From: Craspedostauros australis
Lineage: Eukaryota > Bacillariophyta > Bacillariophyceae > Mastogloiales > Achnanthaceae
Direction of reading: 5' to 3'
Assembly (NCBI GenBank): GCA_026770025.1
Contig: JAMXDE010000016.1
Span: forward strand, 1,364,001 to 1,428,000
DNA: 64,000 bases
This document shows, in pieces, positions 1-30,574 of this stretch (within the stretch, counting starts at the first letter, position 1; every line of letters begins with the position of its first letter). The position numbers were made by a program, and so were the translations under genes. The notes beneath the pieces were generated by a model that was not told the DNA's origin, did no database searches, and saw only the letters and a list, made by a program, of their open reading frames with translations.

Positions 1-3000
1 GGCCCAACGTTCGAATACACTGCCGCTTCCACCCCCCAACAGAATGGTCGCGTGGAAAGAAAATTCGCGACGTTGTACGGGAAAGTCCGCTCCATGCTCA
101 ACCAAACGCATCTACCGAGAACAGTGCGTGGGAAATTGTGGGCGGAAGCAGCCCGAACCGCAACACAGCTCGAAAATATTATTGAGACAAAGACAAGAGA
201 ACCAACATGTGTTCTCTTCAACAACCGGATCCCAACATTCGTGGATGGATTACGAAAATTCGGAGAAATAGGGATGGTATACATCGGCGGTCGTACGATA
301 AAGGCCAAGCTGGACGATAGATCCAGACCAGCCATGTTCGTTGGCTACGGCCAATCGCACGCAAAAGGAGTATATCGAATGCTGAATCTCGCAACAACCA
401 AGATCCTAATCACGAGAGACGTGACATGGATGAATCAGTCATACGGGCAATTCAGAGGTATCGAGAATGCCAACAGATCTATGCTGATAGATCTAGAAGA
501 TGACGACTCTACGTCGGGTGTGAACACCCGAGCTACAAGAACAACTTGGGAGCGACGATCGGAGACCATCAAGAGCATGGAGGCCGACGACGCGGATCGC
601 AGCAGCAGAGCCGAAGAAATAGAAGATACTGATGACGCTGCGCGAGGGCAAGATAGCTTGCTCCCTGCCCAAGGGGAAAATGAATCGAACGAAGAGAACG
701 ACGATGAATTTGGAAGGGACGACGAGGGGAATGCAGACGAAGCGGCCGAGAAAGAGCCCAAAGACACCCCTGTCGCAGAACCTGTAACACGCATGCCAAG
801 GATGCTGAGCGCTCTCGCCGGGTATAACAACGACCCAATCCCAGAGGAGGAGCGAGATCTCGGATCAAGTGATGAGTCAGAACCTAGTAACAGCGAGGGA
901 TATGTGACGCCCGAAGAGACCATCACAACTCCACCGGAAACAGGAGGACCCGACTTTCACGCAGACGGGTCAATATTCAACAGAGATATCGCAGGTACGA
1001 TGATAGACACACCTCATGGAATGACGAGACTAGATGACATCATCACTGCGGACCAGGCATTGAAAGACGAACGAAATGAGGGAGGGGCAGAACATGCGAA
1101 TGTCGCTATGCTGCTAGACCCCACCACATTCGAAGACTGCTGGGACCATGCGGATCCCAACAAAAGAAAGAAATGGCGCGAAACTATCAACAAAGAGTTC
1201 TATGATATGGCCAGAAGGAAAGTATGGGAGAAGATCAAGAAGGACCAGATGCCGAAGGATCGGCGGTGTGTGAAGACCAAATGGGTCTTCAAGGAAAAGA
1301 GAAATGGGGTATTCCGCGCCAGACTCGTGGCATGCGGATACTCGCAAATCGCAGGAGTCGACTTCTCAGCACACCACGCGCCAGTGATACATGATGCAAC
1401 ATATCGAATCATGCTCACGATGAAGATGATACTACACATGGACAGCATCATCATCGACTTTGAGACAGCATTCCTGCATGGAGACCTCGATGAAGAGATC
1501 TACATGCAATGCCCAAAGGGTATGAGGCACGAAGCCGACGAATGCCTGCTACTCAAGAAAACCATCTACGGCCTCGTGCAGAGCGCGAGACAATGGAATA
1601 AGAAGCTCGTCGACATCCTATTCAAACTAGGGTTCAGACAGAGCGAGGTGGACCCATGCCTGCTGATTCGGAATCAGGAAGGGAGACTGCTACTGATCGG
1701 CACCTATGTGGACGATTGCCTCTGCATCGGAGAGGAGCAGGAATTGAAAAAGCTTGTGAAGGATATCTGAGCGGAACGGTTCGGCGTCAAGGTGGAGGAA
1801 GATCTCGAAGACTACCTGAGTTGCAAGATCATCTTCAACCACGACAAGACGAACTGTTGGGTGAACCAACCACACATCCTAAAGAACATCATCGATACGT
1901 TCGGAAGCGATGTGGTGAAGCTGCAACGATACGGAACGCCTGGGACACCAGGGCAAGGCATCCAAAGGCAAAGCGATGCACCCAAAGTGGACAAGTAGCG
2001 ACACAGCAGATACCGAAGCGGAGTAGGTATGCTGCTATACCTGGTGAAACACTCTCGACCCGACATCGCCAATGCAGTGCGAGAACTGACCAAGGTGTTG
2101 GATGGACCAACAGCCACAGCATACAAGGAAATGCTTCGAGTCATGAAATTCGTATGGGACACAAGAGAGTATGGACTGAAGATGAAACCAAGTCCACTGA
2201 CCCAAGATGCATGGAAGATTGCAATATACACCAACAGCGAATTCGCAGGTGACAAAGACAATCGCATCAGCGTAGGAGGGCACATCGTCCTACTACAAGG
2301 AGTGCCGATCATATGGAGATCAAAGGCACAACGGAGCGTAACACTCAGCTCGACGGAGGCAGAGTACGTCGCCCTGTCGGAGGCAGGAAAAGAAATTCGC
2401 TTCGTAACACAATTGATGAGAGACATCGGACTGAGGATGCACAAGCCGGCAGACGTGATGGTTGACAATGTTGGAGCGATCTTCATCGCGTCCAACCCAT
2501 CAACATCCGCCAGGACACGGCACATCGACATCCGACATCATTTCATTCGAGAACTGATCACGAACGGAGAGGCCAGAACCAAATTTGTGCGTTCTGAAGA
2601 CAACATCGCAGATGGCTTTACGAAAAATACCAAAAAGGAGACCTATGAAAAACACAGGGATCACTACATCCAACTGCGTTCCACAATGGATCAGTGACGG
2701 AGAGGAGAGGACGCGAAATTATGAAAAATGTGAGAGTGTGAGTGATGTGTTGTCGATGCGACAATGGAAGGGTGTCAGGAATCGAGGGTACGACTCTGTC
2801 GGAAAGATACCTATGATTGCCGCAACTCCCAACATTATTTGTCACACCTTTGGATATTATTCGTCACACCTTTGAATATTATCCATTCCAACCACGACAC
2901 GAATCACACGGGAATGACCTCAGTCCTACCAAGAAAACAAGCCTGTCCTCTGTGAATCAAGAAAAGGCCACGATATCTAAATCATGTGAAGGAAGATGAT

Positions 3001-3415
3001 GACCGACACATTGATGATCACCCCATCTGGAGATCATGGCACATGTCAGCCAGGGACTAGAACAACTCAGAAAGGGTATCATCCATGACACCAATCATGA
3101 CACCAATCGTGGAGTTCGGTGTCAGGAGATCAAGAGCGAAACGCAAGACTGTGGAATCGTACCGCAGGGAATGTAGAATAAGGATATGCACGACAAGGTG
3201 CATGACAAGGATGCCTGCGGATGAGATCTCATGCATGCAAGCGTTGATTCATGATGATGAGATGCATGAATACAACAGTCTAACACGATGCTGCTGCAGG
3301 AGATGCTACATGAGAACGAAAGGCAAAGGAGCTGAAGAGAATGAGCTCACAGTTCTGAATAGTACGATCTAACAACCAATTAGTTCTTACTAACACTAAC
3401 CCCGGATTTCCAACA
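1..3415 (+). mobile_element. Ty1/copia LTR retroelement, copy 1 (left end outside window)
   Basis: The right part of a Copia-type element. Parts seen in order are the end of an integrase core (a TPQQNGRVERK-like motif at the left edge), an acidic linker at about 0.5-1.1 kb, reverse transcriptase at about 1.1-1.8 kb with a YVDD-type active site, RNase H at about 2.2-2.7 kb, and the 3' LTR. The integrase-before-RT order is diagnostic for Copia. The coding part is broken in about two places, so this is a decayed, moderately old copy. The 5' LTR, gag and protease would lie left of the window, so length and age cannot be measured. It ends exactly where a host PSxxPS-repeat gene begins, so it appears to have inserted into that gene. 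Confidence 0.93.
2773..3415 (+). repeat. 3' LTR of copia copy 1
   Basis: The repeat runs from TGTCAGGAATC to GGATTTCCAACA. These ends form an imperfect inverted repeat with TG...CA termini, about 643 bp apart. A related solo LTR lies at 51603-52418 and shares both ends and the stretch around GAGCTCACAGTTC. The partner 5' LTR is not in the window. The boundary is supported by the immediate start of host coding sequence at 3416. Confidence 0.8.
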
Positions 3416-4058
3416 CTCTCCCACCTTCCGTCCGAGGAGCCGTCAGATATCCCAAGCTCACTCCCGTCAAACACACCATCGCAACTCCCGTCTGAGGTGC
3501 CATCCACACAGCCCTCCCAACAGCCGTCCGACGAGCCGTCGCAAGCCCTGTCCGAGGTGCCATCCACGCAGCCCTCCCAACAGCCGTCCGCACTCCCATC
3601 CACCCCACCATCTGACATGCCGTCATCAAGCTCACAGCCGTCCGCACTCCCATCCACTCAACCATCTGACATGCCGTCCGCACAGCCCTCCCAACAGCCG
3701 TCCGCCATTCCGTCGGACTTGCCGTCAGATATGCCAAGCTCTGTCCCAACTCTCGCCCCAGCATCCCTCACCGTAGGATGTCTCTTAATACTGGGTGATG
3801 ACAAATCAACGTTCAATTCCATCACGGATAGTGTATTGTGCGATGGTGCAACAGGCACATGCGCGGATTTCGTCTCGATGGTTGATGCTCTCGCTGAGGG
3901 GAAGCGCAAGATGGTCAAGAGCATCTTTGGATGCAATGGTACAAGCCCTCCACAGCCTGTGACGTTGCAGGTGGCGCAGGAACGCTTTGACAAGATCAAG
4001 AACGACGAAAGTGTGACCACTGCGTTGTTGTCGATAGCGAAGGAGGACACTAAGCTCT
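3416..4058 (+). pseudogene. PSxxPS-repeat cysteine-rich surface-type protein, middle piece of a gene cut by two LTR elements
   Basis: An open frame of about 24 tandem Pro-Ser tetrapeptides (PSQQ, PSDE, PSDM, PSAL types) is followed by about 95 residues with scattered cysteines. Pro/Ser tandem repeats of this kind are common as spacers in secreted or surface proteins of diatoms. The frame is open from the first base after the copy 1 LTR, so the N-terminus should lie left of the window. The frame stays open to 4058, where copy 2 begins. Skipping that element and one copy of the 4-bp target duplication (CTCT), it continues in frame into 11253-11989. Signal peptide and start codon are not visible. 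Function is unknown; a wall or adhesion role is only inferred from composition. Confidence 0.8.
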
Positions 4059-4059
4059 G

Positions 4060-4690
4060 TATTAGCGCACGCTAAATCTCTAACAATAGCGACACCCGTC
4101 GACCAATCAGAAATCTCCACTTTTCTTACCTTTTCCGTTCCGAACGGAAATTTTGGTCGAAAATCCGTTGTGTCAGATTTGTGTCGCATTTCGCGTCGCA
4201 AGAATCGTTTTCCCTCAATCACAGATCCAAAAATGTCGTGGAAATTGATTTCTTGCCAAGATGAGCCAATCTGCCCAATCAGGACAGACTTGGATCTTGG
4301 GTGTGACACGTGCGAATCTTGCCCTGACCTTCTCAAGTGAATACGATCAATCGTGTGATCGTACTACTAGCAACATCGTGAGAAGACGTAATTTACAACA
4401 CGGGCTATCGCGGTGTTTTGTTCATTGACTTTTGCACCTCATCTTCACGCAGTAACACGCACATTTGTCGTGTTGTCTCCATGTTATTTTTACTTGCAAT
4501 TGCATGAGATCATGTCATGCCTCTCTCATGCTCACAGTTCCAAGAAGACAATCTTGTGAGCTTGACAGCATTCCTACTACCATACGAATAATACAGTAAA
4601 CAAACACTCTCCTCACCAACAACAACGACTTGATCACTCTACGTTCTTGGTGCGGTATCCTTCACACCCATCTACGATTACGTTCTAACA
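4060..4690 (+). repeat. 5' LTR of copia copy 2
   Basis: The 631-bp repeat runs from TATTAGCGC to TTCTAACA. It matches 10618-11248 with no difference that I could find. The termini are TA...CA rather than the usual TG...CA, although TATTAG still pairs with CTAACA at five of six positions. The base before it (G at 4059) is also shared by the 3' copy, so the true edge could be one base further left. Confidence 0.92.
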
Positions 4691-4707
4691 GATTAACAGT
4701 CGCAAGC
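4691..4707 (+). other. Probable primer-binding site of copia copy 2 (tRNA-Asn anticodon-arm complement)
   Basis: The 17 bases directly after the 5' LTR begin GATTAACAGTCGC. The reverse complement reads as an anticodon arm: stem TGCGA, loop CTGTTAA, then the first stem bases TC. The loop carries GTT, the anticodon of tRNA-Asn. Drosophila copia and yeast Ty5 are known to prime from an internally cut initiator tRNA. A half-tRNA primer from tRNA-Asn is my inference. Confidence 0.6.
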
Positions 4708-7700
4708 TTTCACCTACTGAATTGATTGCGTGACAATCCATCCATCCTTCATCCTTCGTCCATCCACGAGCGATCCCTTCACCTTCCATCACGTGACGAC
4801 GTGATTTTGGCTTCCCTTCGGCTTTCTCGCATCCGCAGAACGCCCTCTTTTCGGTTCCTCTGCTGAGTTCGGGCTTTCCCACTCAGCCATCCAAGACTTC
4901 CTGCAGCACCCTCCCGCACCAGAAGACGATTCAGTCAGTGCACTCCAGCCTCAGCTACCCTTTGGCCTCCAGCATCCGCATCCACTCTATCCATCCATCC
5001 ATCGCCAATCATGTCGACTCCTGAGATGGACCTCGCCACCCTGGATCACATCCTCGGTGTCATTGGCATTCCTTTGGACTCCACTCCTCGCGATATCATC
5101 GCCCATGCGGACATTGTCAGCCCTCTTGACCTTGTCTCGCTCACCGAAGATGATCTTCGCAGCTTCCAACTTCGCGATGATACCGAAGATGGCGAAACCA
5201 TTGTCGCCGTGCTTGGCGTCAACCACATTCGCAAGATCCTCAACCTTGGCAAGTGGTATCTCACCCAAGCCATCCTCGACGACAACACCTGGAACGATCT
5301 CGATCGTACCTCGTTCATGGCGTTCACAGCTGAGCAGAACAACCCTTCCCTTCCGTCTTCGCACTCGCATTTGACTGCAAGCTCTCCCATTCCGTCTCCG
5401 ATGGGCATGGGCCACCACACCACTCCAGCATCCGCATTCCGTCCGGTGCCTGAAGAACCTCCGCATGTGAACTTCGCATTCGATCCTTCGGCTTCGGTGC
5501 CTGATCCTGCCTTCCCGCAACCACCTGTGACTCCATCCATGGCAACCTCTTCCAACTTCCAAGGTGTCCATGCCATGGAGCTACCGGCTGACTACGTCAA
5601 GGAGTTCAGCAAGGCAACCAAGCGAGAGAGCCTGTCGCTCCCGACACTGAAGGACGACAAGCACTTCCTCACCTTCATGCGGACCTTCGAGACTCTTTCC
5701 TTCTCCCATGGACTCAACCACCATCTCGACATGGACTTCATGCCAGCACCCAAGGACGAGGCCTTCTTCGCGAGCCAGAATCGCTACCTCTTCGCCGTGC
5801 TCACTGAGCATGTCAAGACTTCCAAGAGTCGGCGCATCATCTGTGCCTACAAGAAGTCCTGCGATGGTCGTGCGGCCTACGCCGACCTCGTTGACAGCTA
5901 CACCAGTGGCGTTGTCGGCGAGACTCTGTCCATCAAATACAGAGACACCATCGTCGCCTTCCGTCTGGACCAGACTTGGACCAAGACCCGCGAGCAATTC
6001 CTCGATGCCTGGGAAACCAAGCTCGATGACATCGAAGAGCTCGATGATGCATGTGTCGATGAGGCGGTCAAGCAGCAATGGTTGCGCACCGCCATCGGTC
6101 CCGATGTCGACTTGACTCGGGCCTACACCAACGTGAAGTCCAACTCCCGCCAACGTCACAAGCAATCTCGCGGCTTCATCAAGGTTGGTGTCTCCTTTGA
6201 AGACCTCCTCGAGTTCGTTCGAGATGAGGCACAATCCCTTGACGCCAACCAGCCTCGCACCACATCTCGGCGCAAGGTCAACAATGCCAAGACCGGCGGC
6301 TCTACTGGCAAAGGCAATGGCAAGGACTACGCCAAGGACGACCGTCGTTCCATCCCCAATGATGAATGGCGTGAGATGTCCAAGGACCAACGCAAGGCGT
6401 TCCTCGAAGCAAAGGGAAAGTGGCGCAAGAACAAGGGCAAGGGCAAGGCTGACTCCCACCGAGCTGCCAACAACGCTGCCACATCTTCGGGCACCACCGA
6501 CACTCCTTCCGCAACCCCGTCCGCCGGCAACACGGACTCTTCCAAGGCTGGTGACCAGTCCACTGCCATCGATCGCCTTCTCGCACAGACCAAGTCCACC
6601 TCTTCGTCTGACGATACTCCTCAACTGGTCTACAAGGGCCAGACCTGGCGCCTTGCCAACTCCACGGTGGTCCGGTACAGCTTCAACAAGCTTGTCAAGG
6701 ACCACTCTGGCTCTCTCGTCGACAGCAGTGCCAATGGTGGCTTGGCTGGCGATGACGTCCTTGTTCTCTGCAAGACAGGACACACCGCCGACGTCAGTGG
6801 CATTGGCGACTCCGCCATCGCCAACCTCGACATCGGTACGGTTGCTGGTCTCATCCAGACCACCGAAGGGCCCATCATTGGTAAATTCCACCAATATGCA
6901 CTCTACGGAAAGGGCAAGACCATCCATTCATCCAACCAGCTTGGTGCCTTCGGAATGGATGTCAACGAACGCCCACGGAATCTCCCTGGAGGTCGCCAGA
7001 CCATCATCACACCAGGAGGCCACATCATCCCACTGGCTGTCCGGCAAGGCCTATCCTACATGGACATGGCCAAGCCCACCCGCTCCGAACACAACAAGTA
7101 TCCACATGTCGACTTCACCGCGGACGACGAATGGGACCCTTCTTCCCTCGACCAGGAGATGAACCTCGACGACGTCGCCGATGATGACGCCGCAGCACTC
7201 CAGCGCCGCGAGAACAACTCTACCGTTCTCACGGCCTACACTGGTGCTCGCCAAGCCGACATCGCTGACAACCCGGGCAGCATCATTGCCACTCGCAAGC
7301 CTGCCGACTACGAGGCTCTCCGACCCCACTTCGGCTGGATACCGGCTCGTCGCGTTCGCGACACTCTTCGGTGTACCTCCCAGTGGTACCGTACCGCCGA
7401 GCGCTTCTCCATGCGCAAGCATTTCAAGTCTCGGTTCCCAGCGGCCAACGTCAACCGTCTCCATGAGACGGTTGCGATGGATACGCTCTTCTCCGATACC
7501 CCTGCTCACGACGACGGGGTTCCCGGCCATGGCGGCTGCACCATGCTTCAGGTGTACGTCGCCCTCGACTCTTGGTTCACGGCCGGCTTTTCCATGCCAT
7601 CCGAGAGCCGCATCTCCGACACTCTCCGTGACTTCATCCGACGCCACGGGGCTCCTGACCTACTGATGTCCGACAACACCAAGGCGCAGATCGGTAACAA

Positions 7701-10617
7701 GGTTATGGAGATCCTCCGGCAGTATCACATCCGTGATCACCAGAGTGAGCCGGAACATCAACACCAGAACGGCGCGGAACGCCGGATCCAGGATATCAAA
7801 CGCACAACCAACGGTGTGATGGATCGCACGGGTACTCCCGACCGCTTCTGGCTGATCTGCACGCTCTATGTGGTTGATCTCTTCAATCACATCGCGCAGG
7901 TCACCGCTGGCTCCATCACCCCCCTTCAAGCCGCCTTCGGACAGCGACCGGACATCTCCAAGTTCCTGTCCTACCGATGGTGGCAACCTGTCTACTACCG
8001 GGTTGACAACCCCACCTTCCCCAGCCAGTCCAAGGAGCGCAGTGGACGCTGGGCCGGTCCCTGCCTTCACAAAGGCGATGATCTTACCTTCTGGGTCCTC
8101 GACGACGAGACCCAACGACTTCTTCCTCGGTCTGCCATCTGACCTGCCGACGACTCTGCCACCCGCAATCTTCGTGCGGACTTCCCCTTCCCCATTGTTG
8201 GGGAGGACGATGGCTCTGATGCCATGAATGTGGCGAATGGGGAGTCAGACGACGACATCTCCGTCCCTCCTGACTCCGACCCCATCGTACACTCCCTCGC
8301 CGATTCCATCCTGGCTGACCGCCGCGGCACAGACCCTGAAACAGTGGGGAATGCCAAGGTCCACATCCCGAAGTTCTCTCCCGAGGATCTCGTTGGGATG
8401 ACCTTCATCCACGAGAAGGATGGCCAGCAAGTCAAAGCGGAGGTGGTGCAAAAGGTCAATGACCTTGACGCAGCCAACCACCAACGTATCAAGATGCTAC
8501 TCGCACTGGCCGATGGGGAGACGCATGACCTCATCTCCTACGTTGAGCTCGCCGACATCATCGAACGGCAACAGGAGCACAACGACGACCCCGACGCCAA
8601 GTGGGAGTTTGATTCCATCATCGGACACGAGGGTCCCCTCTCATCTTCCTCTCCCTCCTACAAGGGATCCAGTTTCAACGTCATCGTGAAATGGGGAGAC
8701 GGCTCCACCTCCACCGAACCCCTCTCCATCATGATTCAGGATGATCCTGTCTCTTGCGCTGCCTACGGCCGCCGCCACGAGCTGCTCGACGAGCCTGGCT
8801 GGAAGCGCCTCAAGCGCCTCGCCATCCGCACCCATCGTCTCGAGCGCCAGATCCACAAATCCAAGACCTTCAACCACGCTCCCACCTTCCAGTTCGGCGT
8901 CCAAGTCCCCCGCAACCACAAAGAAGCGCTGCGACTCGACGATAAGAACGGCAACACTCTCTGGGCCGATGCCGAGAAGAAGGAGATGGACCAACTCTTC
9001 GGGTACCACACCTTCAAGTCTCTTGGCAAAGGCGCCCCTGTCCCCTCTGGCTTCCAGAAGATCCGCCTTCAATGGGTCTACGCTGTGAAGCACGACCTTC
9101 GCCACAAGGCGCGCTGCGTCGCTGGTGGTCATCTCACCGACCCCTGCAAGGATGCATCTTACGCAGATGTGGTCAGTCTTCGCTCTCTCCGCCTCTCCCT
9201 CCTCGCCGGCGAACTCAACGGCATCCCAACGTGGGTTGGAGACATCGGCAATGCGTATCTTGAGGCCTTCACTCAAGAACGCATCTGCTTCATCGCTGGT
9301 GACGAATTCGGTGACTTCGCTGGTCATACCATGCAGATAGTCAAGGCACTCTACGGCCTGCGCACATCGGGCGCCCGATTCCATGAGGCTCTCGCCGACA
9401 CCCTTCGCGACATGGGTTTCCTCCAATGCCGCTCCGATCCCGACGTCTGGATGCGTGACGCCAACTCCCATTGGGAGTACGTCTGCGTCTACGTCGATGA
9501 TCTCACCGCGACAATGGCTGACCCCAAGGCCTTCTTCGACATCCTCTCTTCGAAGTACGGGTACCAGCTCAAGGGAGTTGGTCCTATCAAGTACCACCTC
9601 GGTGCTGACTTCGGCTGTGACCCCGACGGCACTCTCAAGCTCTCCCCGCAATCCTACATCAAGCGGATGATGGAGAACTACGAGCGCATGTTCGGCGAGC
9701 TTCCCCGCAAGATCAGCTGCCCTCTCGACAAGGCCGACAGCCCGGAGCTCGACACCTCTTCCGAACTTAGCGAAACCGACAAACGCAAGTTCATGTCGCT
9801 CATTGGTGCACTCCAGTGGTGTATCTCCCTCGGACGGTTTGACATCTCTGTCGCCGTCATGACGCTGGCACGCTTCCGCTCAGCTCCTCGCCAAGGTCAT
9901 CTGGATCGCGCAAAGCGCATCTACGGATACCTTCGCAAGCATCCAGATGCTGCCATCCGCTTCCGCACCTGCGTTCCCCGCTTCGATCTTCACTACGAGG
10001 TTCCCAACCATGACTGGATCTACTCTGTCTACAGGAAGACCTCCGAGGAGATTCCGGACGACATCCCCGAGCCGAAAGGCAAACCTGTCCGAACCACCAC
10101 GTTCGTCGACGCCAACCTTCTCCACTGCCAAGTCACTGGCAGATCCGCTACCGGTGCTCTCCATCTGGTCAACCAGACACCCATCGAATGGTTCTCCAAG
10201 CGTCAAGGCACGGTTGAGACCGCCACCTACGGGTCCAAGTTCGTTGCTGCCCGTCAAGCTACGGAGCAGATCATCGCCCTCCGTCTTGCCCTTCGTGAAA
10301 TGGGCATTCCGATCGACGGCCCCAGCTGGATGCTGGGTGACAATCAGTCCGTCATCACCTCCTCCACGGTCCCCAAGAGCATGCTCTCCAAGCGCCACAA
10401 CGCACTGGCCTACCATCGCGTCCGGTCCGCTGTCGCCGCTGGCATCCTCTACTTCATCAAGATCCCCGGCACGCAGAACGTCGCCGACGTGATGACGAAG
10501 TTCCTTCCATGGGCTGTCTTCTGGCCCCTCGTGAAGCCCATCCTCTTCTGGAAAGGACACACTGAGTCCTCTTCCCCGACCTACAAGACCTGAATGTCCG
10601 GGACACGCTTTGGGGAG

Positions 10618-11248
10618 TATTAGCGCACGCTAAATCTCTAACAATAGCGACACCCGTCGACCAATCAGAAATCTCCACTTTTCTTACCTTTTCCGTTCCG
10701 AACGGAAATTTTGGTCGAAAATCCGTTGTGTCAGATTTGTGTCGCATTTCGCGTCGCAAGAATCGTTTTCCCTCAATCACAGATCCAAAAATGTCGTGGA
10801 AATTGATTTCTTGCCAAGATGAGCCAATCTGCCCAATCAGGACAGACTTGGATCTTGGGTGTGACACGTGCGAATCTTGCCCTGACCTTCTCAAGTGAAT
10901 ACGATCAATCGTGTGATCGTACTACTAGCAACATCGTGAGAAGACGTAATTTACAACACGGGCTATCGCGGTGTTTTGTTCATTGACTTTTGCACCTCAT
11001 CTTCACGCAGTAACACGCACATTTGTCGTGTTGTCTCCATGTTATTTTTACTTGCAATTGCATGAGATCATGTCATGCCTCTCTCATGCTCACAGTTCCA
11101 AGAAGACAATCTTGTGAGCTTGACAGCATTCCTACTACCATACGAATAATACAGTAAACAAACACTCTCCTCACCAACAACAACGACTTGATCACTCTAC
11201 GTTCTTGGTGCGGTATCCTTCACACCCATCTACGATTACGTTCTAACA
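10618..11248 (+). repeat. 3' LTR of copia copy 2
   Basis: The 631-bp partner of the LTR at 4060-4690, apparently identical. It is followed at 11249 by CTCT, the duplicate of host bases 4055-4058, after which the interrupted host reading frame resumes. Confidence 0.92.
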
Positions 11249-11252
11249 CTCT

Positions 11253-11989
11253 TCGCTGGGAGCGGGACTGTGGTGACGAGTGCGTGCGATGGCTCATGTT
11301 GCATCGGTGAAAGAGCTTGCACCACTGACCCTTCTGATGGCGTCATCATGACAGTGAGCTCAGGATCATGTGACGGGCGGCAAGCATGCGCCAACATGCG
11401 TCCCAACGCAATCATACTTGACAGTTGCAAGGGAATCACTTCCTGCTTTCGTGTGGGCAATATATTCGGAGGACATACAGCTGCTGGTGTCGAAGTCGGA
11501 TTCAGGGTGATCGGGCCCAGAGCTTGTGAACCAACGGGGAGTTGCAGCAGTTTTGGATTCAACACCTATGGCAACATACGATTGGAAGAAGGAGCATGCG
11601 ATGCAGAAAATGCATACATCAACGCTGTGCTTCGAAGCAAGCAAGGGTTTACAACCACACCGGTCGTGGCAAGTGTTTTTGTTGGAAAGATGGCGTGCAA
11701 AGGGGAATTCGCTTGTTCAAATTTGCATCGCCCCTGGCGGTACAAATTTGCAGGTAGCGTGATCATCGGAGCCGGTGCTTGCTCGGGCGAGAACACGTGC
11801 CGAAATGTTGGCTACAGTGACAGTGCAACCAATGACATCATCATCAGCCCAGGAGTGTGCACAGAAGACTTCCTCTGCCAAGAGTGCGGTAAAGCAAATT
11901 TGTGTACGTTTGCCAACGAGACGTATGTAATCGACAACGCAACTTTGGATTGCCCTGGACCAGAGCAATCTGCTTGCGAAGTCGTCTAA
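11253..11989 (+). pseudogene. PSxxPS-repeat cysteine-rich protein, C-terminal piece
   Basis: About 244 codons continue the host gene interrupted by copia copy 2. The piece begins FAGSGTVV when joined to the upstream codons and ends at a TAA. It holds several loosely repeated units of the form SCxGxxAC followed by 20-30 residues rich in Gly, Ile and Val, for example SCDGRQAC, ACKGEFAC and ACSGENTC, and a closing Cys-rich segment. Such repeated C-x-G-x-x-C units occur in predicted secreted diatom proteins of unknown function. No membrane segment is visible. The piece has no convincing start of its own, and read-through from the upstream piece would enter the LTR and stop. I therefore treat the gene as disrupted on this haplotype. 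Confidence 0.8.
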
Positions 11990-13018: not shown

Positions 13019-15552
13019 TTACCAACCCATGATCTTGGACCTCAAGTATTCGAAGACCACGATGGACAATCCCTTCGTGAAGATGTCGGCAAGTTGCTCC
13101 GGTGTGGAGACGTGCTGAATGCAGATGAAGCCTGCCTTCACCCAGTACCAAAAGAAGTGCCACTTGGTCAAGAAGCGTTTGGTGCGCGCAGTCGGCTGAT
13201 GATTGGTGGCAAGGGAAATGCAGGCTTGGTTGTCCTCGAAGACAGTGCACTGGAGGTTGGTGTGCAGCGGCATGTTGGTGCCTGCATTGTTAATCACCTG
13301 GCAAATGAGCTGTTGGATGGGAATCAATGTTCGCATAGCCAGAGAGAGAGAGCAGCGTACTCGGATTCCATCGTGGACAGTGCGATCTCAGTTTGGAGCT
13401 TTGATTTCCAAATGAGAGGACATCCGCCCAGCATGATCAGATATCCCGTGCGTGACTTGACAGACACAGGGTCTTTGCTGTCCTCTCGTCCGTAGAGGCC
13501 TGCAAAGTCAGCATCCATGTAGCACTTGAGATCGAGTTGCCCGGTGGGGCGAACGATGGCGCCCTTGGTTTCCGTGTGCTTGAGATAACGCATGATGCGT
13601 TTGATGGCCTTTGCGTGTGAGCGGCGAGGATCGTTCCCGAAGTGTGCAACTTGGGAGACTGCGAAAGCGAGATCTAGACGAGTGTTTGTTGTGAGGTACA
13701 GCAGCATACCAACAACGGAGCGGTAGTTTCATTTCTTGTTCATGGCTGGCTCATCCTTGCACTGTCCGAGTGTGAGCTGAGTAGTTCGTACTGGGCATGG
13801 ACTGCAGTTCGACATCTTTGTCGTCTCAAGGATCTTTTATCAATCCTGGCTGTCAAAGATGGACAGTGTCCGCCTTTGGGTCGCGGCAGAGCTCAATCCC
13901 CAGGAATTCAGTGAAACTTCCTTCTTGGGTGAGCTCGAACCCGAGTTCACGCATTGATGCAATGAAGTCGTCAGCATCCTTCTTGGTTTTGGAGGCGATT
14001 CCTGCATCGTCAACGTAGAGGACGATCATGATGTCATGCTTGATGAACAGGCATTGCTCCTGGTCGCAGGCTGTGAAGCCGACTGTGATCAGGGCTCAGA
14101 TGAGGTGCTCATACCACAGGCGTGGAGCAATTGTTAATCCGTAGAGGCTCTTGCGAAGTCTGAGACAGGTGTTGGGCCCCTTGCTTGACTTGAAACCGCA
14201 AGGGAGGTGAATATACACAGGCTTGTGGATGGAGGCCTGTACAAAGGTGTTGGTGAAGTCGATGGATGTCGTTGTCCAACCCATCACGATGGATGTGCTC
14301 AGGAAGATGCGAACGGATGACCAGGCCACGACTGGCGCGTAGGTAGATGCATCCTCATTCATGAGGTCTCCTCGGCAGCACCAGTGGCCCTTGTACTTCT
14401 TGATTGTTCCGTCCGGCATACGCTTGCGGCGGAAGACCCAGGTCCCCGGGAAGATTTGATCGTTGACGATGTCAGCCTTTGGGATCTCTTCCCACATTCC
14501 CTTTTCCGTGAGGGCCTTAATTTCCTTTTTGGCTGCTTGCATCCATTCATCCTTGTTGTCGCCACGAATTTCCTCGTCGAAGGAGAGAGTGTCGGGATTG
14601 CTGCTGGACGCCTTGTACACGGATGAGCGTTCGGAGATGTCCAAGTCACCGCCTGTTGCGAAGTAGCTCACCATGTGTCCATCAACGTAGGCTGGGAAGT
14701 TTGTTGAGTCTTGCTGCGGCTCGATGATGGAGACAGCGTAGGCGTGTTGTTCGATGTTCACCCATGCATACTCTGGAATGTATGTGGCTATGTCGAGGAT
14801 GGACGATGGATCGACTTCGAGCGTTGATCCGTTTTGGTCGGAAGCACGCGTCGCTGGAGCCACTTTCAAAGGCACGGTGTTGGTCTCAATCATCCCTTGG
14901 ACAAATTTCTCGACTTCGAATTCACTTGGGTGTGGCATGGCCCTGAACGAATAGTCGTGACCTGGCGACGAAGCAGTTTGAATGCGAAACGGTAGCGATG
15001 GTTCTCAGCAATGGCATTCCAGACGGAGCGAGTTCTTTTGAAGGTGTTTCCGCTGATGCTGATCTCAGGAGGAAGAAAACCTTTCATCATCAGGTACTCT
15101 GAATCCTGGTACGACCATGCCTCTGGAGTGGCCGATGACATGTAGTCGAAGGCATCGAAGCTGGGGTTCATGGTGCCTATGCGGATGAAGGTGCTCGGTT
15201 TTCCAACGAATTGACCGACAGCGTAGTCTGTCGCTTGTCTCCTGAAGTCGTCGCAGCGAATTTTGCAGTGGAGGTCGGTCTCGAAGTGTTTCTCCATGTC
15301 CGAGTAGAAATCCTCGTAGACGTCTTGGAATGGAGTTGGTCCCTCCTCGGTCATGTCGTCTGGATCCAGTTGCCACCAGTCGGCCATGTTGATGCTTTCT
15401 TCTTGAGTGTTCGTTGCTCTTGGCTCGAAAGTTGGCAGACGGAAGTTGGTATTGTGTGGATTCAATGTGTTGAATCGGAATCGAAGGTTCCGCAGTAAGT
15501 AATAAGTATCCACTTTTGTTGGCAAGTTCCGTGATTGAAAGCCTACGATCAT
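13019..15552 (-). mobile_element. Decayed Ty1/copia element, copy 3
   Basis: Remains of a Copia pol gene on the minus strand. RNase H is seen at about 13.0-13.7 kb (VFEDNQACISLA, and a TPEQLADIFTKGL-like end) and reverse transcriptase at about 14.0-14.7 kb (TWVFRRKR, DFTNTFVQA and LYGL motifs). An acidic linker-like segment reaches about 15.5 kb, where attribution to the element is less certain. No gag or LTR pair could be recognised. The coding part is broken in about four or more places and is clearly older than copies 2 and 4. The RT type (KSLYGL) is unlike that of copies 2 and 5. Confidence 0.85.
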
Positions 15553-16215
15553 GGAAGACAGTGTTGGTTGATAGTCATTCTGTTTGCTATTTCATTACGT
15601 TGGCACTCCAATCCTCTTGGTGTCTGTTCTCTTGCCCGATGCTCTCGGCGCTTCAATCTGTTTCGTAGATTTGGTCTCCAACTATGAGTCGGTATGCGAG
15701 ATGCTCTCTCGCTACTCTTCGTATTCTCTCTCTCTCTCAATATTGTGTACCTGTGCCACACGATACTTCGCATTCGATGCGTACTCCGCATTTGACACTC
15801 CGTTCATTCACTGCTGGTTCCTACTCCACGAGTACTTACCATTTGAACTTCACCTCCTGTATCCATGATCCTGATGTCCTTCGGTCATCGGATCTTTGCC
15901 TCCTCCTCTGACATGGAGACAGATGTTGACGTCAGTAGGCGTCCTTCTGCTCTCCAGATGTCACGTTCCATTGGTGATGCAGGAGTCTGTCAGATGATAT
16001 CGTCATCTGGGGTTTAGTTGGGAGGTACATCGAGATTCGCTCGATACCATATGTTTCCATTGATGGATGGACGGACGATGTTTCTAATTCTCTCAGAAAT
16101 CGTCGATTGTAAATTTCCTCCCGAAATTCTGCTCATTTTCGTGTGTTCCATTTGTGGTGTGATTCTGACAAATCACAGCATACTATTGACACGAGTGTAG
16201 TTTTACTGTCCGTAC
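15553..16215. other. Intergenic stretch, nothing recognised
   Basis: About 660 bp downstream of the copia relic. It has a short CT-rich run near 15725 and no coding or RNA feature that I can support. It may contain eroded 5' sequence of copy 3. Confidence 0.4.
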
Positions 16216-16560
16216 ATGAATAAGAGAATAGCGGGTGAACGATGCACATATACACGTACATCTCGACATATACTCACATGTACATCTCGACATCAGGTGG
16301 CAAGCATTGTTGGCCCAGGTCTTGGGTTCCTTCCAGCCAACATCAGCGCTCGATCCTTGTGGGCGGGTGACGCCATGGCGCTCCTTTGCGCCCGCGTCAA
16401 CACCGACATGATCTCCCTCGTGGGTCGTTGGCGCAGCGACGAGATGATGCAGTACCTGCACATCCAGGTTCAGCCTGTCATGAATGGTTTCTCCCACTGC
16501 ATGCTTGCTGATAACAAATATACTCTAGCTCCAGGCCAGGGCATCCCCTCTCCACCTTAG
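16216..16560 (+). mobile_element. Tyrosine-recombinase C-terminal remnant
   Basis: An ORF of 114 codons whose middle (GFLPANISARSL, then LVGRWRSDEMMQYLH, then QPVMNGFS) resembles the C-terminal catalytic half of tyrosine recombinases found in diatom repeats. GRWRSDEM..YLH is the segment around the catalytic Tyr. Only about 90 residues of similarity are present, and the N-terminal catalytic half is absent, so this is a scrap. The parent could be a Crypton-like DNA transposon or a DIRS/Ngaro-type retroelement. The remnant is too short to decide. Confidence 0.55.
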
Positions 16561-20186: not shown

Positions 20187-20706
20187 TGTGATATTGGTTC
20201 CAGATGTCAGCACTGTGAGACCGGCGTGTGCAGTGGTGAGATCGTGGGCTCTGGTTTGGAGGTAAATTGGTAATCGTTAGTTGTCGATTTAGTTGGTTTG
20301 CGTTGTTGAGTTGATTGAACTCTCGGTTTATGAGATGATGACGAGATGTTGTTCTGTCAGAATGCAAGTTGCAGGGTCAGCAGCATCTCCCGTGTAATTC
20401 GTCGTGATCATCATCCTCATTCGATTTGGGTCCTCGCAATACACCGTGTTGTACTTCATTTGGTCTTGGGTTGCGATGGCACTCCGAGGTCGTGCTCGGT
20501 TGGTCGATAGTTATCCAGATCCACGATCGATCCAGAATCTTCGCCGTGTTTTGATTGAACATAACACACAAGGAACATTGTTGAAAAAATGGCGCGCATG
20601 GTTCCTGGAGTCGTGATTGATTTGAGTGAGGAACAAAATTCATTCACGACACAATTTGATCACTCTCAAGGTCACAAAGTATGCGTGTCATTGGAATATT
20701 CCCACA
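20187..20706 (-). repeat. 3' LTR of copia copy 4
   Basis: A 520-bp repeat which on the plus strand runs from TGTGATATTGG to GGAATATTCCCACA, so both strands show TG...CA ends. It reads the same as 26570-27089. A purine-rich tract (read on the minus strand as CAAGGGAG) borders its internal side at 20707. Confidence 0.94.
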
Positions 20707-23700
20707 CTCCCTTGTCAACCTTGATCCCTTTGTGTGAACTTCCATCCCATAGAGAGCTCCGTGAACTTGTGGAACTTGTCGTCTGCGAGTGGTTTCGTCC
20801 AGAGGTCTGCGAGCTGGTCGTCGGTGTCGATGGCGTAGATCTCGATGAGCTTGCGATCCACGTACGATCGGAAATGGTGGTATTTGATGTTGATGTGCTT
20901 TGTTCGGGGTCGCATCTTCGGAAACTTGGCGATCTCGTAGGCGCCTGAGTTGTCCTCGAATGCATTGCAGTACACCCTGGGCTTGTACTTCTCTGGTACG
21001 ATCTCCCTGGCGCACATTTCGTTGAGCAGGTTCATCATTGGAATCACGTCGCGCAACGCCGTTGATAGTGCGATCACTTCGGCTTCGGTTGTGCTCAATG
21101 CGATCTCCGTCTGCAAGCGCGATGCCCATGCGATGGGGCATCCTGCAAATCGAATCAGGTATCCAGTCCTTGATCTGGCTGTGGCTGAGTCTTCGGCTGC
21201 TGTGTCTCTGTTCCACAATCCCGCAAAGTCTGCATCGGCAAAGCATTCGAATGCCTTGTCGTTGGGGTTCAGGATGATGCCTTCGTCTCTGGTTGCCATC
21301 AGGTACCGCCCGATTAGGTTCACCGCTTGTGAGTGCGATTTCTTCGGATTGGCGCTGAATCTGGCTGCTTGATGCACGGCGTACCCGATCTCCCCGCGAG
21401 TGGATTTCTCCAGGAAGTTGAGCTTTCCGATGACCGATCGGTAGCTCCAGGTCGCGTTGTGCTCCTCGCCATTCTCGTCTGCATCCAGGATCTTCGTCGT
21501 CATTGCCGGCGTGTCCCTGGGTCTGGTGTTTGGACGAAAGTTCAGGTCCTTTACGATCTGATCGATGAGATGGGGCTGCGACAGTTTGATGCGTCCGTCC
21601 TCCAGGTGAGTGACATGCACACCCAGATAGTCCGTGAGGTTCCCTTCGTCGGTGATATTGAACCGCTGTTGCATTTGATTGAGAAGCTTGTCAATCTCTT
21701 CTGCGCTTGGGCCTGCGAGGATGCCGTCGTCCACATACACCAGAAACATTGTCTTACCGTGGTAGTAGACGCATTCGTCGACTTTGCTCTGTGTGAATCC
21801 GATGTCGCTCAATCCCCGGTGCAGATGCTGGTTCCAGACTCGTCCGGCCTGCTTTTGGCCGTACAGGTTCTTCACCAGCTTCAGGACATAGTCCTTCGTG
21901 TCTCCATCTCCGATGCTCACTCCAACTGGTACTTCCATGTAGATAGTTGTCTCCACTTCCGCCTGAGGGTATGCGAGCACGAAATCGATCTGCCTTGTGT
22001 GCCATTTGTGCAGGATTGAGAGGATGAGGACGAGTCTGATGGACATCCAGGTAACGACCGGGGCGTATGTCTCCCAGAAGTTCACTCCTTTGACCTGCTG
22101 GCCTCCGTGGACGTTGAGCCTTGCCTTCCACTTGTACACCTCTCTGGTCTTGATTCGGCGTTTCCGCTTCATGGACCACACCGATGCTACCACCTTGGTT
22201 CCCTCTGGCACTTCTGATCTCGGGACGACCTCCCAGTGGCCGTTCTCGTGGTGAGCGTTGAGCTCAGCTTGCATCGCCTCCTTGAACTTCATCCGATCCG
22301 GTTGCTTCATTGCTTGGTGATAGTACATGGTGTCTGGGTCGGCTGATGCGGCGAATGCGATCGGATCTGAGGTCTCGTTGGTGTCGAATCCTTTTCCGTT
22401 CTCGAATGTGCTTGCCACCTCGAATGCGCTGGGTAGTGCGACGACTTCGGTGTCTCCATTCTCTCTTACCTTTCTGGATGGTGTTCGGTGCCTGTTTGAT
22501 CGACGCAGTCCTGCTGACTGCTCCTGTTGATTCCTGGCTGGTGGCTCCGTGGTGGCGGTGTTGCTGGGCGCTTCGCCGATGTTGATGTCGTCGCCCGTTG
22601 CCGCCTGTGATGCTTCGAACTCTTCGTCTCCTTCCGGGTCATCTGCGTTCGTATGCTGATTTGTTGGCGATGTTGGCGCATCCGTGTCGGAGGACCCGCG
22701 TAACCCTTCGGTTGCGGTCACTCCCTTGGAGCGCTTGATCACTCCAGGCTTGCTGATGCCTGCCAACTGCTTCCATTGGCCATGATTGGTGCCTGTGGTA
22801 CCCACCACTGTCTCAAACATGTCATCGCACTTGACGTGAAATTGCGGCGACACCAGTCCTGTCCTTGGGTTGAGGATGAGCGCCACCGATCTTGCGTGAC
22901 GAGGAGAGAGTCCAAGGTAGATCCCGATCCTTGCCTTCGACATCCATTTTGGCTGTGATTGGCCATTGGCGAGTCGAGGGTTCAGGACGTACGTTGGGCA
23001 TCCGAACGAATGAAAATGCTTCAGCTGGGGCTTGATTGCGGACCCAGAGAATCGTTCAATAGGTGTGATGTGATTGATCACTGGATTCGGGGTTGCGTTC
23101 ATCACCTCATTTGCCATGCGCAGAGCGTACGGCCACAGTGAAATGGATGCGGCCTCCTTCCACCTGATGTGCATGTGCAGCAGCATTGTCCGAGCTGCCT
23201 CCTGCAGATCCCTGATGCGTTTCTCCGCCACTCCGTTTTGGAAGTGGGCGTATGCGGCGCAAAAGGTGATGGTCTGGCCGGAGCGATCGACATGCGAGAG
23301 GAATTTGTTCTCTGCGAATCGACCATTGTCGGCGTGATAGTGCCGAATCGTCACTCCGTAGGTCTTGGCGTATGCCTCGAATGCTTGTTTGGCATGCAGG
23401 GTTTCTTCGGCGTTGGTGCTCTTCTGAAGGTGCACGTAGCTGAATCGACTGTGATGGTCAGTGAAAATGGTGGCTGCGCGGTACCGCTGGGTAGTCAGCC
23501 TGCCTTTGATCTGTCCGATGAACCCCTGTGTTGGTGACTCCATCTGGTCCACCGACACACAGTCTCCAGGCCGATTGATTGGCACGAGTTTGCTCACTTG
23601 CTGATTGCCTCCCTTGGTCCGCCATGGCCGTCTGGTTGCCTTTCCATACTCACATGATGCGCATGCGGGCAGTTGGCAGTCTCGGAACTTCGCAGGGATC

Positions 23701-26551
23701 TCTCCCTTGGAAGCCATGGTCCTCATCTTGTTGAAGGATACATGCCCAAGCTTGTAGTGCAGTCGGAGCATGTCGGCTGTTGGAGTAGAGCTGTACTCCG
23801 AGGTAGCATCGATGGGTGCTCTGTAGGGCACATCCCTGAAGTCGATCTGCGTAGGCTCCTTGCTGAGTTGGTCCTCCGCTCCGCTGGTGGTGATTGCTTG
23901 CTCACTCTGGTTGATGCTCCCGTCATCATCGTCCATTACCACTGACTCCTCGTCGTCGCTGACCAGATTGGCTGCGTCCATTGGTTCGGTAGGAGTGATT
24001 TCCTGCACTGAATTTGTCAAGCAGTACTTCCTGAATCCATTGTAACCCGATGACGATCTGATCATGCCGATGTTGGATGACGTGAGTGGTATGGATCGTC
24101 GGTGCTTGCGACGGTCCCAAAAGATCTCCATTCTGTTGCCGAGGGTGGTACATCCGGTTCCCTCAAGATCCTTGCTGCATTGCGCCCAGTGTTGTGGGCA
24201 GAGCAGTCGGAATGGAAGGCTGGGCTCATAGATCACTTTGTCGAGCTCGATGATGTGCCGGTTTCCGCGGTCGTCCTCGATCTTCCATCTTACCTTTCCT
24301 TGCAGGTTCACCTTCCGACTCCCAACTCCCTTCACGACCTTGTCGATTTTCGTAGGTTCTCCGATGAAGTCATCCTTGCTGTTGGTGAATGACGTGGATG
24401 CACAGTTGTCAACCGCCATCTGAAACGAGTCTGAATCGAACCGGGCGAGCGGCATTGCGAATGTGTCGTCTGTCTCCGTGTCTGCGGCTGCCCAGAGATG
24501 TCGCATTGTTCTTGTGCGCCATCCGGACTTTCGTCCAATCCTGGGTGGCCTGATTCCGTTGCCGTGCGCGTAGTATCGCCGGCACTTGTGGTGGTTTGGT
24601 CGCCATCTGGTGTGTTTGCGTGGGTGTCCTTGGATTAGCGCGATGCGCCAAGCTGTCCACGTGACCAGAGCAACCACCACCATAGCCATTCCTGACTCCT
24701 CATCTCCGTGCACGAAGGCGGCAACGCAGATGGCTGTCAGTAACGCCATGATGAGTGGCCTGCAGAGGGTGAGCAACTGTGCCCACACCCTCCGGCCGAT
24801 CATTCAGTACTCCTCTTCGGCCACATGTGGCATGGCCACCGTTGGCTTGTTGCTGGAAGTACCATCTCCTCCTGATTTGTCAGGCTTCCCATCCGAATTG
24901 ACCCCTCCCTTGAGGGCCTTGCACTCCGATGGCTTGTGCCGGACCCACTTGCCGTTGGTTCCGTGGTTGGGGCACCAGTGGACATCTTTTCCACTCGGAT
25001 CCTGCTTGGTCTTGGGCTCTCCGCTGGCCGGTGGTTGATAGAACCATGGGGTGTCCCCAGATCCTCCTTTCTTTCCGTCCTTCTCTTTGCCCTTCTTGCC
25101 CTTCTTGCCCTTGCCGTCCTTGCTGTCCTTGCCCTTCTTTCCGTTGCCGCCCTTGTTGGCTTTCTTCATCTTCTCGAGTTCTGCCGTCAGCGCCACGATG
25201 TGTTTCTGGTCCTCTGTCTGGGCCTTCCACGTTCCGCGCTCCACCATGGTCTTGTATTTCTTGTCTACCAGATCCATGAGTTCGTCGGCGTCAATCGCGA
25301 TCCCTTCGTTGTGCTGGTCCTCCTTGCTTTCGATGTACCGGCGGAAGGTCTCATCGTTCACCTGCTTGTAGGCGTCGAAGAGGTAGATCAGCAGGTCGTG
25401 GGTGACTTGTCCACGTGCCGTCAATCCGTTGCGTTGCAATTTTGCATACTCGTTGAGTTCGGTGATGTTGTCCGAGAGATCGCCGATCTTGCTTGGCAGG
25501 TTGGCCAGGTTGCTTCGCAGCATGCTGATGGTTGCGTTGGTGTTGACCAATGACTTCTCCATCAGGACCTTGAACATCAACAGACCATCATGGACTTTTC
25601 CTTCGGCTGTGCTCAGGGAGTACTTCTCTGACTCCAGCTGCATGCGGGACCTTGCGTCTTGCGTGAGGGACTCCTGAATGCATTTTGCGATCTGCATTGC
25701 GTTCTGGGCGTGCCTGGTCTGTCGGCTAGAGTATCCTTCGGCGTATGCCAGAACCTCCTTGTAGCTGATTGTGCTATGTTCGAGGAACAGGTTTCGCTTT
25801 TCGCCGCGGATGTTGATGATGATGGTTTGGAGCCAGTTGAACTCCATTGCTCGGGCGTTGAGGAGATTGGTGAACTTGTGTACAAGGTTCGAGGTCATGT
25901 CGAACTCCACTGGGAGTGACTCGACGGCCTTGTAGTACAGCTTCGCCACAGATGTCTTGCTGTAGTCGAGCAGCCGATTGTGGATGCGAGCTGGCGTCAA
26001 AGCGTACTGGAATGCAGGCTGTGCATCCACTACCTCTTCATCGTCCTCTTCATCGTCCTCATCGTCGCCCCCACCGTCTCCTCCGAAGTTGTCGAAGAAG
26101 GGATCGTCCTCTTCGTACGGGTCGCCCCCGCCTCCGCCATCTCCTCCGCCGTCCCCGCCGCCGTTGCCTCCTGGGTTGGTGTTGCCCTGTGGAACGTTCT
26201 GAGCGGGTGGCTTCAGGTTGCCTTGGTTGGTTGCCATGGCGTTTGGGTTGTTGTCGCCTGGGTTGGACGGTTGGTTGCTGGCTGCGGCTTGATTGCCCGC
26301 AGTGCCTCGGCCTGCAGCTGTGTTGGGTGCGGCGCTCGTGTTGGCAGCTGTGTTGGCTGCGGTGCTGGATTGTCTCGCTCTTGAGCGAGTTGTTGCTGTG
26401 GCGACCATGATTCCGTCCAGTTGGTTTGACCAGTCGTTGAATAGGTACACTTGATTGTTTGTGGGGCCTGGAGACGAGATTGTGGATTGCAATGTGTTGT
26501 CGTGTCCTGGACCTGCAGTAGAATAGCGCTACGAGAGGTGACTTGCCTTGA

Positions 26552-26569
26552 CGTTGCGCAGAGGAAGCG
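26552..26569 (-). other. Probable primer-binding site of copia copy 4 (initiator tRNA-Met D-arm complement)
   Basis: Directly internal to the 5' LTR the plus strand reads TTGCGCAGAGGAAGCG. Its GCGCAGAGGAAGCG part resembles the D-arm of eukaryotic initiator tRNA-Met, GCGCAG.GGAAGCG. On the minus strand this would be the site where a tRNA 5' fragment pairs. Copia-type elements are known to prime from internal parts of initiator tRNA-Met, but in Drosophila copia the site is nearer the anticodon. The assignment is inference. Confidence 0.5.
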
Positions 26570-27089
26570 TGTGATATTGGTTCCAGATGTCAGCACTGTG
26601 AGACCGGCGTGTGCAGTGGTGAGATCGTGGGCTCTGGTTTGGAGGTAAATTGGTAATCGTTAGTTGTCGATTTAGTTGGTTTGCGTTGTTGAGTTGATTG
26701 AACTCTCGGTTTATGAGATGATGACGAGATGTTGTTCTGTCAGAATGCAAGTTGCAGGGTCAGCAGCATCTCCCGTGTAATTCGTCGTGATCATCATCCT
26801 CATTCGATTTGGGTCCTCGCAATACACCGTGTTGTACTTCATTTGGTCTTGGGTTGCGATGGCACTCCGAGGTCGTGCTCGGTTGGTCGATAGTTATCCA
26901 GATCCACGATCGATCCAGAATCTTCGCCGTGTTTTGATTGAACATAACACACAAGGAACATTGTTGAAAAAATGGCGCGCATGGTTCCTGGAGTCGTGAT
27001 TGATTTGAGTGAGGAACAAAATTCATTCACGACACAATTTGATCACTCTCAAGGTCACAAAGTATGCGTGTCATTGGAATATTCCCACA
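26570..27089 (-). repeat. 5' LTR of copia copy 4
   Basis: The partner of the 20187-20706 repeat, 520 bp and apparently identical. It is followed at 27090 by the GGTGT target duplication. Confidence 0.94.
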
Positions 27090-29221: not shown

Positions 29222-30574
29222 TTAGATGCCCTCTGGGAGGAAGTATCCGGCCTTGGCGGCGTAAGCTGGGACGGTAAGTCCGGCTCCCAGCTGGTCAGTG
29301 ACGGCCTCTCCGGAGGCAAGGGCCTGGGCCCAGAGTCCGAAGACTCCGACCATGGCGAGACGGCAGTGCTTCAGCTCCTGCAGGCGCTTCTCCTCGTACT
29401 GCTCGTCGGAGTAGTTGAGGCCGAATGGGTTGTATCGGCCCTCGCCCTGTCCGATGCGAAGGTCTCCGGCGATGTAGTCGGATCCCTCCTCCTTGATGAT
29501 GTTGATGCGGCGGAATTCAAGGAAGGACATGAAGAGGAAGATCTGGAGGAGGGCGAGTCCTGGGACCTTTCCGAATGCCTCGAGTGGGTTGGTGAAGCTG
29601 TAGGCGTCGGTTCCGGTCCACTCGTTACCTGGGAGGGTTCCGAAGAGTCCTGGAGCGATGAATCCGACGACGGCGAGCTGGGCGATACGTCCGTGGATCA
29701 ATTCGGCCTCGCGGTACCAGGTGAGGTCATCTGGGACACCGTTGCGGCCCTCGATGCCCTTGAACCATGGTCCGACTGGGACGGTGGAGAAACCAAGTGG
29801 GTCGAAACCGACATCTCCCAACATGGATCCATCAAGGGTGGCTGGGGCGGTGGCGAATGGAAGGGCGACAGATGGTCCGGCGTTGGCCCAGGCGTCAGCG
29901 GAAGGGGAGGGTCCTCCGACCTGCAACAAGTTATCGTTGGCAATGGTTGCGTTTGACGGCGTTGGCGATAACAGAAAGGAGGAGAGAAAGAATGCAATCG
30001 AAAGTGAATTGAATGTCAGAGGAAGGATTCGGATGTTAGTTACGTGGCGTGAAGGCGCGTACCGGTTGAGCATGAATAGTGTTGATGTGGTCATGTCGCC
30101 TTGAGTCTGTGCAGGCATGCCGTCGCACTTTGCAAAAGCTGAGGCCGACAGGAGAAACAGCCACACTCTGTGCCTCTGGTGGCATGGTTGCGATTGCCAT
30201 GCCGCCAACTTCTGCCTATTCTCTTGGCAGATCGCCCACGCAATCACCCAAACGCTTCAAGACGCCTCCGTCCATCCGTTCCTAATCTTCATTCAACGAT
30301 GCATCGTATCGATCAATGCATCCGTCCAACTGGCATGATCAGAGCAACGGCTGTGCTGGTGACTGGTTTGCGGCCAACGCGGTCAGCAACCACCAACCGC
30401 CAGCAACACCGCCGTCACCGAATGTGCCGACCAAGCTGGACGTCCGCGATCTTGCAGCCAACTGACCTTTGCTGCGGCCTTGGCTGGTGCCTTCTTCTTT
30501 CCCAAGGAGAAGGTCATGTCCATGCTGAATCCAGCAGCGGAGGAGACGAGGAGGGCGGCAACAGCGATCTTCAT
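29222..30574 (-). CDS. Fucoxanthin-chlorophyll a/c light-harvesting protein (LHC family)
   Basis: Two exons: 30574-30467 (36 codons) and 29920-29222, with an intron from GTCAGT to TTGCAG, phase 0. The joined product is 268 residues. The N-terminus is a signal peptide (MKIAVAALLVSSAAGFS) with an AxxF-like cut, the bipartite leader used by diatoms to enter the four-membrane plastid. The mature part has the LHC hallmarks: GFDPLGF, helix 1 with the chlorophyll-binding E..H.R (REAELIHGRIAQLAVVGF), a second helix (LLQIFLFMSFLEF), and helix 3 with ELKHCRLAMVGVFG. It should bind fucoxanthin and chlorophylls a/c in thylakoid antennae. Which subfamily (Lhcf, Lhcr, Lhcq) cannot be decided by eye. The divergent neighbour is the MATE gene, about 1.1 kb away. 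Confidence 0.93.

Follow-up and report, generated by a model that had tools for sequence, protein, structure and literature searches.

How a gene for a protein rich in Pro-Ser repeats and cysteines has come to lie in pieces around two retrotransposons is the question raised by the locus described here. The window, i.e. the whole 64,000-nucleotide stretch of DNA that was analysed, corresponds to positions 1364001-1428000 of its contig (C14) in a genome of 74.8 Mb and 90 contigs, and a sequence-only reading of it had proposed a single host gene hit by two copia elements of different lineages. The explanation preferred here, with a probability of about 0.93, is a simple double insertion, in which one member of a gene family was hit by two independent LTR retrotransposons, both in sense orientation; the argument proceeds from gene order and reading frame through the gene family to the ends and target duplications of the elements, all of which are observed directly. 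Elsewhere, the window contains a light-harvesting gene (29225-30256, minus strand), which finds its PDB matches among the fucoxanthin chlorophyll a/c-binding proteins (423 bits for the best) and so bears out the diatom origin that had been assumed, the best-matching structures being presumably those from the diatom Chaetoceros gracilis; a DDB1/CPSF-like gene (42636-47567) with β-propeller and CPSF_A domains and a stop between its two long frames; and a repeat (15515-16292), which is approximately 83% identical to C14:1353369-1354161, found in opposite orientation 5′ of the host gene.

The host gene lies in three pieces on the same strand of C14, in the order N-terminal half, linker and C-terminal half. 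The first piece (C14:1357721-1359364, equal to L021:1721-3364) is the N-terminal part that had been expected to the left of the window, and its 3′ end abuts exactly the 5′ LTR of the first element, copy 1. The second (window 3422..4058, plus strand) carries the Pro-Ser linker and the start of the C-terminal domain, and is recognized by its PT repeat, by matches to paralogs and by the frame across the empty site, while the third (11253..11989, plus strand), comprising the Cys-rich C-terminal domain through the stop codon, is recognized by matches in the genome and by its likeness to DUF7640. When the pieces are joined, with each target duplication counted once, they give 1005 codons free of stops and frameshifts, so that the order, common strand and open frame of the pieces bear out one host gene with two insertions. 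As had been noticed, the Pro-Ser frame is open up to the second element, copy 2, and is resumed in frame beyond it, the joined codons reading KLFAGSGTVV. This continuity goes beyond chance because all of the 23 paralogs that were fetched are unbroken at the point equivalent to 4058|11253, and 47 of 50 bases at the joined site are matched by three of them. The frame is also open after the 3′ LTR of copy 1, but the bases 3416-3421, from which it had been taken to start, are target duplication.

By Pfam, the Cys-rich domains of the protein are DUF7640-like and its linker is a PT repeat. The linker (3416-4057) matches the PT repeat (PF04886) with 44.4 bits, above the cut-off of 26.2, whereas the C-half in the window falls just below the cut-off for DUF7640 (PF24646; 26.5 versus 28.1 bits) and the N-half scores 17.7; in the four paralogs scanned with the same model, L023 (30.3) and L031 (36.9) are above the cut-off, L029 (26.4) and L036 (14.6) below it. 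In having a Cys-rich domain and a disordered linker, DUF7640 and PT repeat resemble the host family, although the host chain carries two divergent copies of the domain. The family architecture comprises a signal-peptide-like start (hydrophobic, as judged by eye), a Pro-Thr stretch, a Cys-rich N-domain, a Pro-Ser/Thr linker and a homologous Cys-rich C-domain, and the host protein is, from these features, probably secreted. When its 1005 codons are aligned with 17 paralogs, the N-half of the host is found to retain 24 of 24 conserved cysteines and the C-half 22 of 23. The C-half gave no match to solved structures at E values up to 1, and a single-sequence AlphaFold2 model of the C-domain (mean pLDDT 32) was useless for structure.

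The family has at least 43 members, host included, which were collected by DNA searches of the genome with the linker (best 40 of 68 candidates scored) and with the C-half (best 40 of 62); 40 of them come from the C-half search and three (on C75, at C5:152524 and at C4:2076663) from the linker search only. The paralogs fetched with their flanks are 20 (L023-L042) plus three (L043-L045), and in 20 of the 23 (17 of the first 20) the copy 2 site is spanned by an open frame of 881 codons or more, the exceptions being L038 (543 codons, with an element upstream), L039 (793 codons, with the frame shifted later) and L041 (265 codons). For the 19 members not fetched whole, the matches to linker and C-half lie at most 26 bp apart in 14; they are 120 bp apart, with partly unmatched DNA in between, at C5:35877, and 9.6 kb apart in a member on C36, while the C-half matches on C3, at C33:82000 and at C10:1064066 are without a linker match among those listed. 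The PSxxPS and SCxGxxAC segments, which had been assigned to one chain, are therefore at home together, since paralogs of the same genome have the linker and the Cys-rich segment joined. No second allele of the host gene was found among the scored genome matches; the closest other matches reach 84% for the N-half when the whole query is counted (parts of it up to 88%), 76-86% for the linker and 76% for the C-half.

Both elements are of the Ty1/copia type. Copy 1 occupies C14:1359365-1367415 (plus strand; its 3′ part is window 1..3415) and is bounded by LTRs at C14:1359365-1360045 (681 bp) and window 2773-3415 (643 bp), which are recognized by their mutual match and differ by 17 mismatches in 643 positions and by 38 gap columns. 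Window 1-1767 matches the reverse transcriptase model RVT_2 with 131.9 bits (cut-off 31.6) and SH3_retrovirus with 42.4 bits, the latter domain lying upstream of the former. Copy 2 occupies 4060..11248 (plus strand) between LTRs of 631 bp (4060-4690 and 10618-11248) that are 100% identical, and its reverse transcriptase (8143-10590) scores 76.5 bits against the same cut-off. An in-frame TGA (8140-8142) divides its two long frames (4867-8142 and 8143-10593) despite the identity of the LTRs. No integrase model matched, at E values up to 1, those parts of the two elements that lie inside the window. The reverse transcriptases of copies 1 and 2 are 24% identical over 189 amino acids, in agreement with the assignment to different copia lineages. 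A further copia-type element is found in window 20187-27089 (minus strand), with identical 520-bp LTRs, two consecutive long frames and an RVT_2 score of 151.9 bits.

Target duplications are of one length within each lineage in the copies examined. They are perfect and 6 bp long in all of the nine other complete copies of the copy 1 lineage (read by eye from the flanks; the count does not include single flanks on C78, C17 and C13, for which a partner LTR was not listed), and perfect and 5 bp long in all of the 10 other copies of the copy 2 lineage, with LTRs that start with TATTAG (one pair, on C24, was split by eye, its LTR ending in CTGACA). By the standard of these 10 copies, the LTR of copy 2 starts at 4060 and not at 4059, and what had been described as a 4-bp CTCT duplication becomes one of 5 bp with one mismatch, CTCTG on the left (4055..4059, plus strand, its first four bases being the end of the host middle piece) and CTCTT on the right (11249..11253, plus strand). 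The changed base is the left one, because all 23 fetched paralogs have T at the position equivalent to 11253. At copy 1, the right duplication is CTCTCC (3416..3421, plus strand) and the left CCCTCC, with five of six bases in common, and the empty site, RVPSETPSALPS-HLPSEEPSDIPS, is in phase with the repeat. Each duplication in the host gene has thus one mismatch, versus none in 19 of 19 other copies, although the latter are not a fair sample, having been picked from the best-scoring LTR pairs (the best 40 of 545 and the best 40 of 234 candidates). Against a simple double insertion it has to be counted that the mismatch of copy 2 is odd next to 631 identical LTR positions, and that a match of five bases in six at copy 1 may arise by chance in a repeat so rich in C and T.

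A chimera formed via copy 1 was, indeed, favoured at first, as the site lacked a clean duplication of 4 or 5 bp and the LTRs differ, and was dropped once the lineage showed 6-bp duplications. According to this explanation, copy 1 is a recombinant between elements residing in two paralogs, the host flanks on its two sides derive from separate genes, and copy 2 alone arose by simple insertion. The unlike length and sequence of the copy 1 LTRs (681 versus 643 bp), its mismatched duplication and the different nearest paralogs of the left and right host pieces are in its favour, and recombination adjoining a gene family is described for a diatom by Maumus et al. (2009; PMC2806351). However, the flanks of copy 1 share a duplication that agrees at five of six bases and has the length characteristic of the lineage, the reading frame and the phase of the repeat both being kept, and the LTR difference is mostly common to an inverted sister element, so that a recombinant is not needed to account for it. 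That the two halves differ in their nearest relatives is general among the 10 genes compared (rank correlation between N-half and C-half relatedness -0.11 over 45 pairs, after 8 of 18 sequences had been dropped for a missing text anchor), which makes the nearest-paralog comparison uninformative as a test for a chimera. A recombinant origin of copy 1 is, on balance, very improbable. Still less credence is due to an assembly artefact, by which loci would have been misjoined via repeats: repeats do surround the host gene, but its pieces stand in the right order, strand and frame, and each element is flanked by a target duplication of the right length, with one mismatch each.

The sister of copy 1 lies inverted at C14:1344373-1352461 (L046, L022), 6.9 kb away, with a perfect GACATC duplication. 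Outside the LTRs, the two elements show two differences over approximately 6.7 kb, and both carry the stops that interrupt the frame at window 1768 and 1996. In the LTRs, 13 columns pair 5′ with 5′ and 3′ with 3′, and none groups the sequences by element; the sister has 11 private changes in its 5′ LTR and four in its 3′ LTR, and copy 1 has two in each, with the 38 gap columns of its 3′ LTR in addition. Retrotransposition normally yields two alike LTRs in a new copy, and the sharing of 5′/3′ differences between the two elements suggests, for this reason, DNA-level gene conversion of one by the other. For the 11 private changes of the sister 5′ LTR, which stand beside a near-unchanged interior, exchange with the LTRs of other copies can be offered as a guess. 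Because of the likely conversion, the LTR divergence of copy 1 is not a safe clock, and the pair provides a case in which such divergence cannot safely give the age of an insertion.

Returning to the simple double insertion, copy 1 sits in the Pro-Ser linker with a 6-bp duplication, and copy 2 sits 637 bp further on, at the start of the C-domain, with a 5-bp duplication. Copy 2 is young because its 631-bp LTRs are identical, and copy 1 would be the earlier of the two in that its LTRs have diverged and those of copy 2 have not; the order is thus deduced from how far the LTRs have diverged, and in copy 1 this may have been changed by gene conversion. The first insertion would already have abolished the function of the gene, and the redundancy of the family would have allowed both to persist.

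Whether these elements prefer the site, or the gene family as a whole, as a target is a separate matter, as an insertion-prone site had also been suggested. Other members have indeed been interrupted. On C9, an element of the copy 1 lineage sits in the N-domain with a clean GCGTCG duplication (C9:1868178-1875687; L038, L070, L048, L049); on C36, the C-domain is split approximately 45 codons from its start by an insert of approximately 9.5 kb (about 423.1-432.6 kb; L068, L069), and the unconditional chance of a double hit in any of 43 genes is 0.07. However, four insertions in 43 genes compare with approximately 2.6 expected (P of four or more, 0.26), an expectation that takes 3 kb per gene and all of the 1493 first-look RVT_2 candidates in 74.8 Mb as real and evenly scattered (the best 150 were scored, and 150 of 150 exceeded the cut-off). 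The count of four is a lower bound, because members not fetched whole could hide insertions in the N-half, and it would come to three comparable cases if the C36 insert, which is of unclassified type, were not copia-type. Given four insertions, the chance of a double hit is 0.13. All four insertion points are different; those in the host gene are about 212 codons apart, and the copy 2 site is uninterrupted in each of the 23 fetched paralogs. An insertion-prone site is not supported by these figures, the number of insertions fitting random scatter; a preferred site is not called for by the insertion counts, and a preference for the family is, likewise, improbable. The presence of two lineages in one gene, which had been called unusual, is so only mildly, with chances of 0.07 or, given four insertions, 0.13.

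The gene had also been described as dispensable or decaying, and the two parts of this suggestion fare differently. Dispensability is probable because the host belongs to a family with no fewer than 43 members, whereas decay is no more than hinted at. That the host gene was decaying before the insertions is rather unlikely. Such decay would be in line with the number of conserved positions from which its C-half deviates (11 of 131, the most of the 18 sequences, the 17 paralogs having 1-8), with the loss of one of the 23 conserved C-half cysteines (paralog L033 also lacks one), with the highest mean C-half dN (0.280 versus 0.223-0.260) and with an N-half dN/dS that is the highest by a small margin (0.236 versus 0.166-0.227). 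On the other hand, the 1005 codons are intact, all 24 conserved N-half cysteines are kept, C-half dN/dS (0.707) is within the paralog range of 0.592-0.838, and N-half departures (9 of 205) are matched by those of paralogs (2-10).

A less ordinary feature, of the family rather than of the insertions, is the unequal evolution of its two homologous domains. In a set of 16 paralogs, i.e. the 17 long-frame ones among L023-L042 minus L027, a near-copy of L026 (the alignment leaving out L038, L039, L041 and L043-L045), pooled dN/dS by the Nei-Gojobori method amounts to 0.20 in the N-half against 0.69 in the C-half, the C-half value being the larger in every one of the 120 pairs. With the conserved cysteine columns removed, it becomes 0.23 for the N-half (codon bootstrap 0.19-0.27) and 0.79 for the C-half (0.65-0.93), the upper bound of which places the C-half as a whole below 1. 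Its centre (alignment columns 75-240, picked after a sliding-window profile) reaches 1.04 (0.83-1.26). L026 and L027 differ by seven synonymous and six nonsynonymous codons in the N-half and by three and 11, respectively, in the C-half, numbers too few alone. Gene conversion among members could distort these dN/dS figures, and positive selection is not proven by the pattern; at the same time, the C-domain is hardly free of constraint, as a domain of that kind would not retain 23 cysteines. A possible, though decidedly tentative, interpretation is that the family is a diversifying system of recognition or surface variants, with a fixed cysteine scaffold and the residues in between driven to change.

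The elements share LTRs, an RVT_2-type reverse transcriptase and target duplication with the diatom Ty1/copia elements of the CoDi groups described in PMC2806351. According to that paper, none of the insertion sites cloned there from other accessions falls within a gene, in contrast to copies 1 and 2, which are inside one. For the host family, literature searches found nothing on DUF7640 or on PSxxPS in diatoms, and among the titles and beginnings of abstracts that they listed none could be recognized as dealing with it. A lead may be provided by a different group of proteins. The sexually induced SIG proteins of centric diatoms are extracellular, Cys-rich and fast-evolving, and in these features they resemble the host family.

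The double insertion, by which transposons entered a redundant gene, is in itself an ordinary event, here in an unusual family. It amounts to the natural knock-out of a single gene in a large family whose proteins are probably secreted, and the identical LTRs of copy 2 point to a copia lineage that was recently mobile. The family is perhaps more important than the insertions, since homologous domains in one chain with dN/dS of approximately 0.2 and 0.7 are what would be expected of recognition or variant surface proteins. If it is indeed a diversifying system, the conserved N-domain would bear the C-domain on a flexible Pro-Ser/Thr arm, and single members could be lost at little cost.
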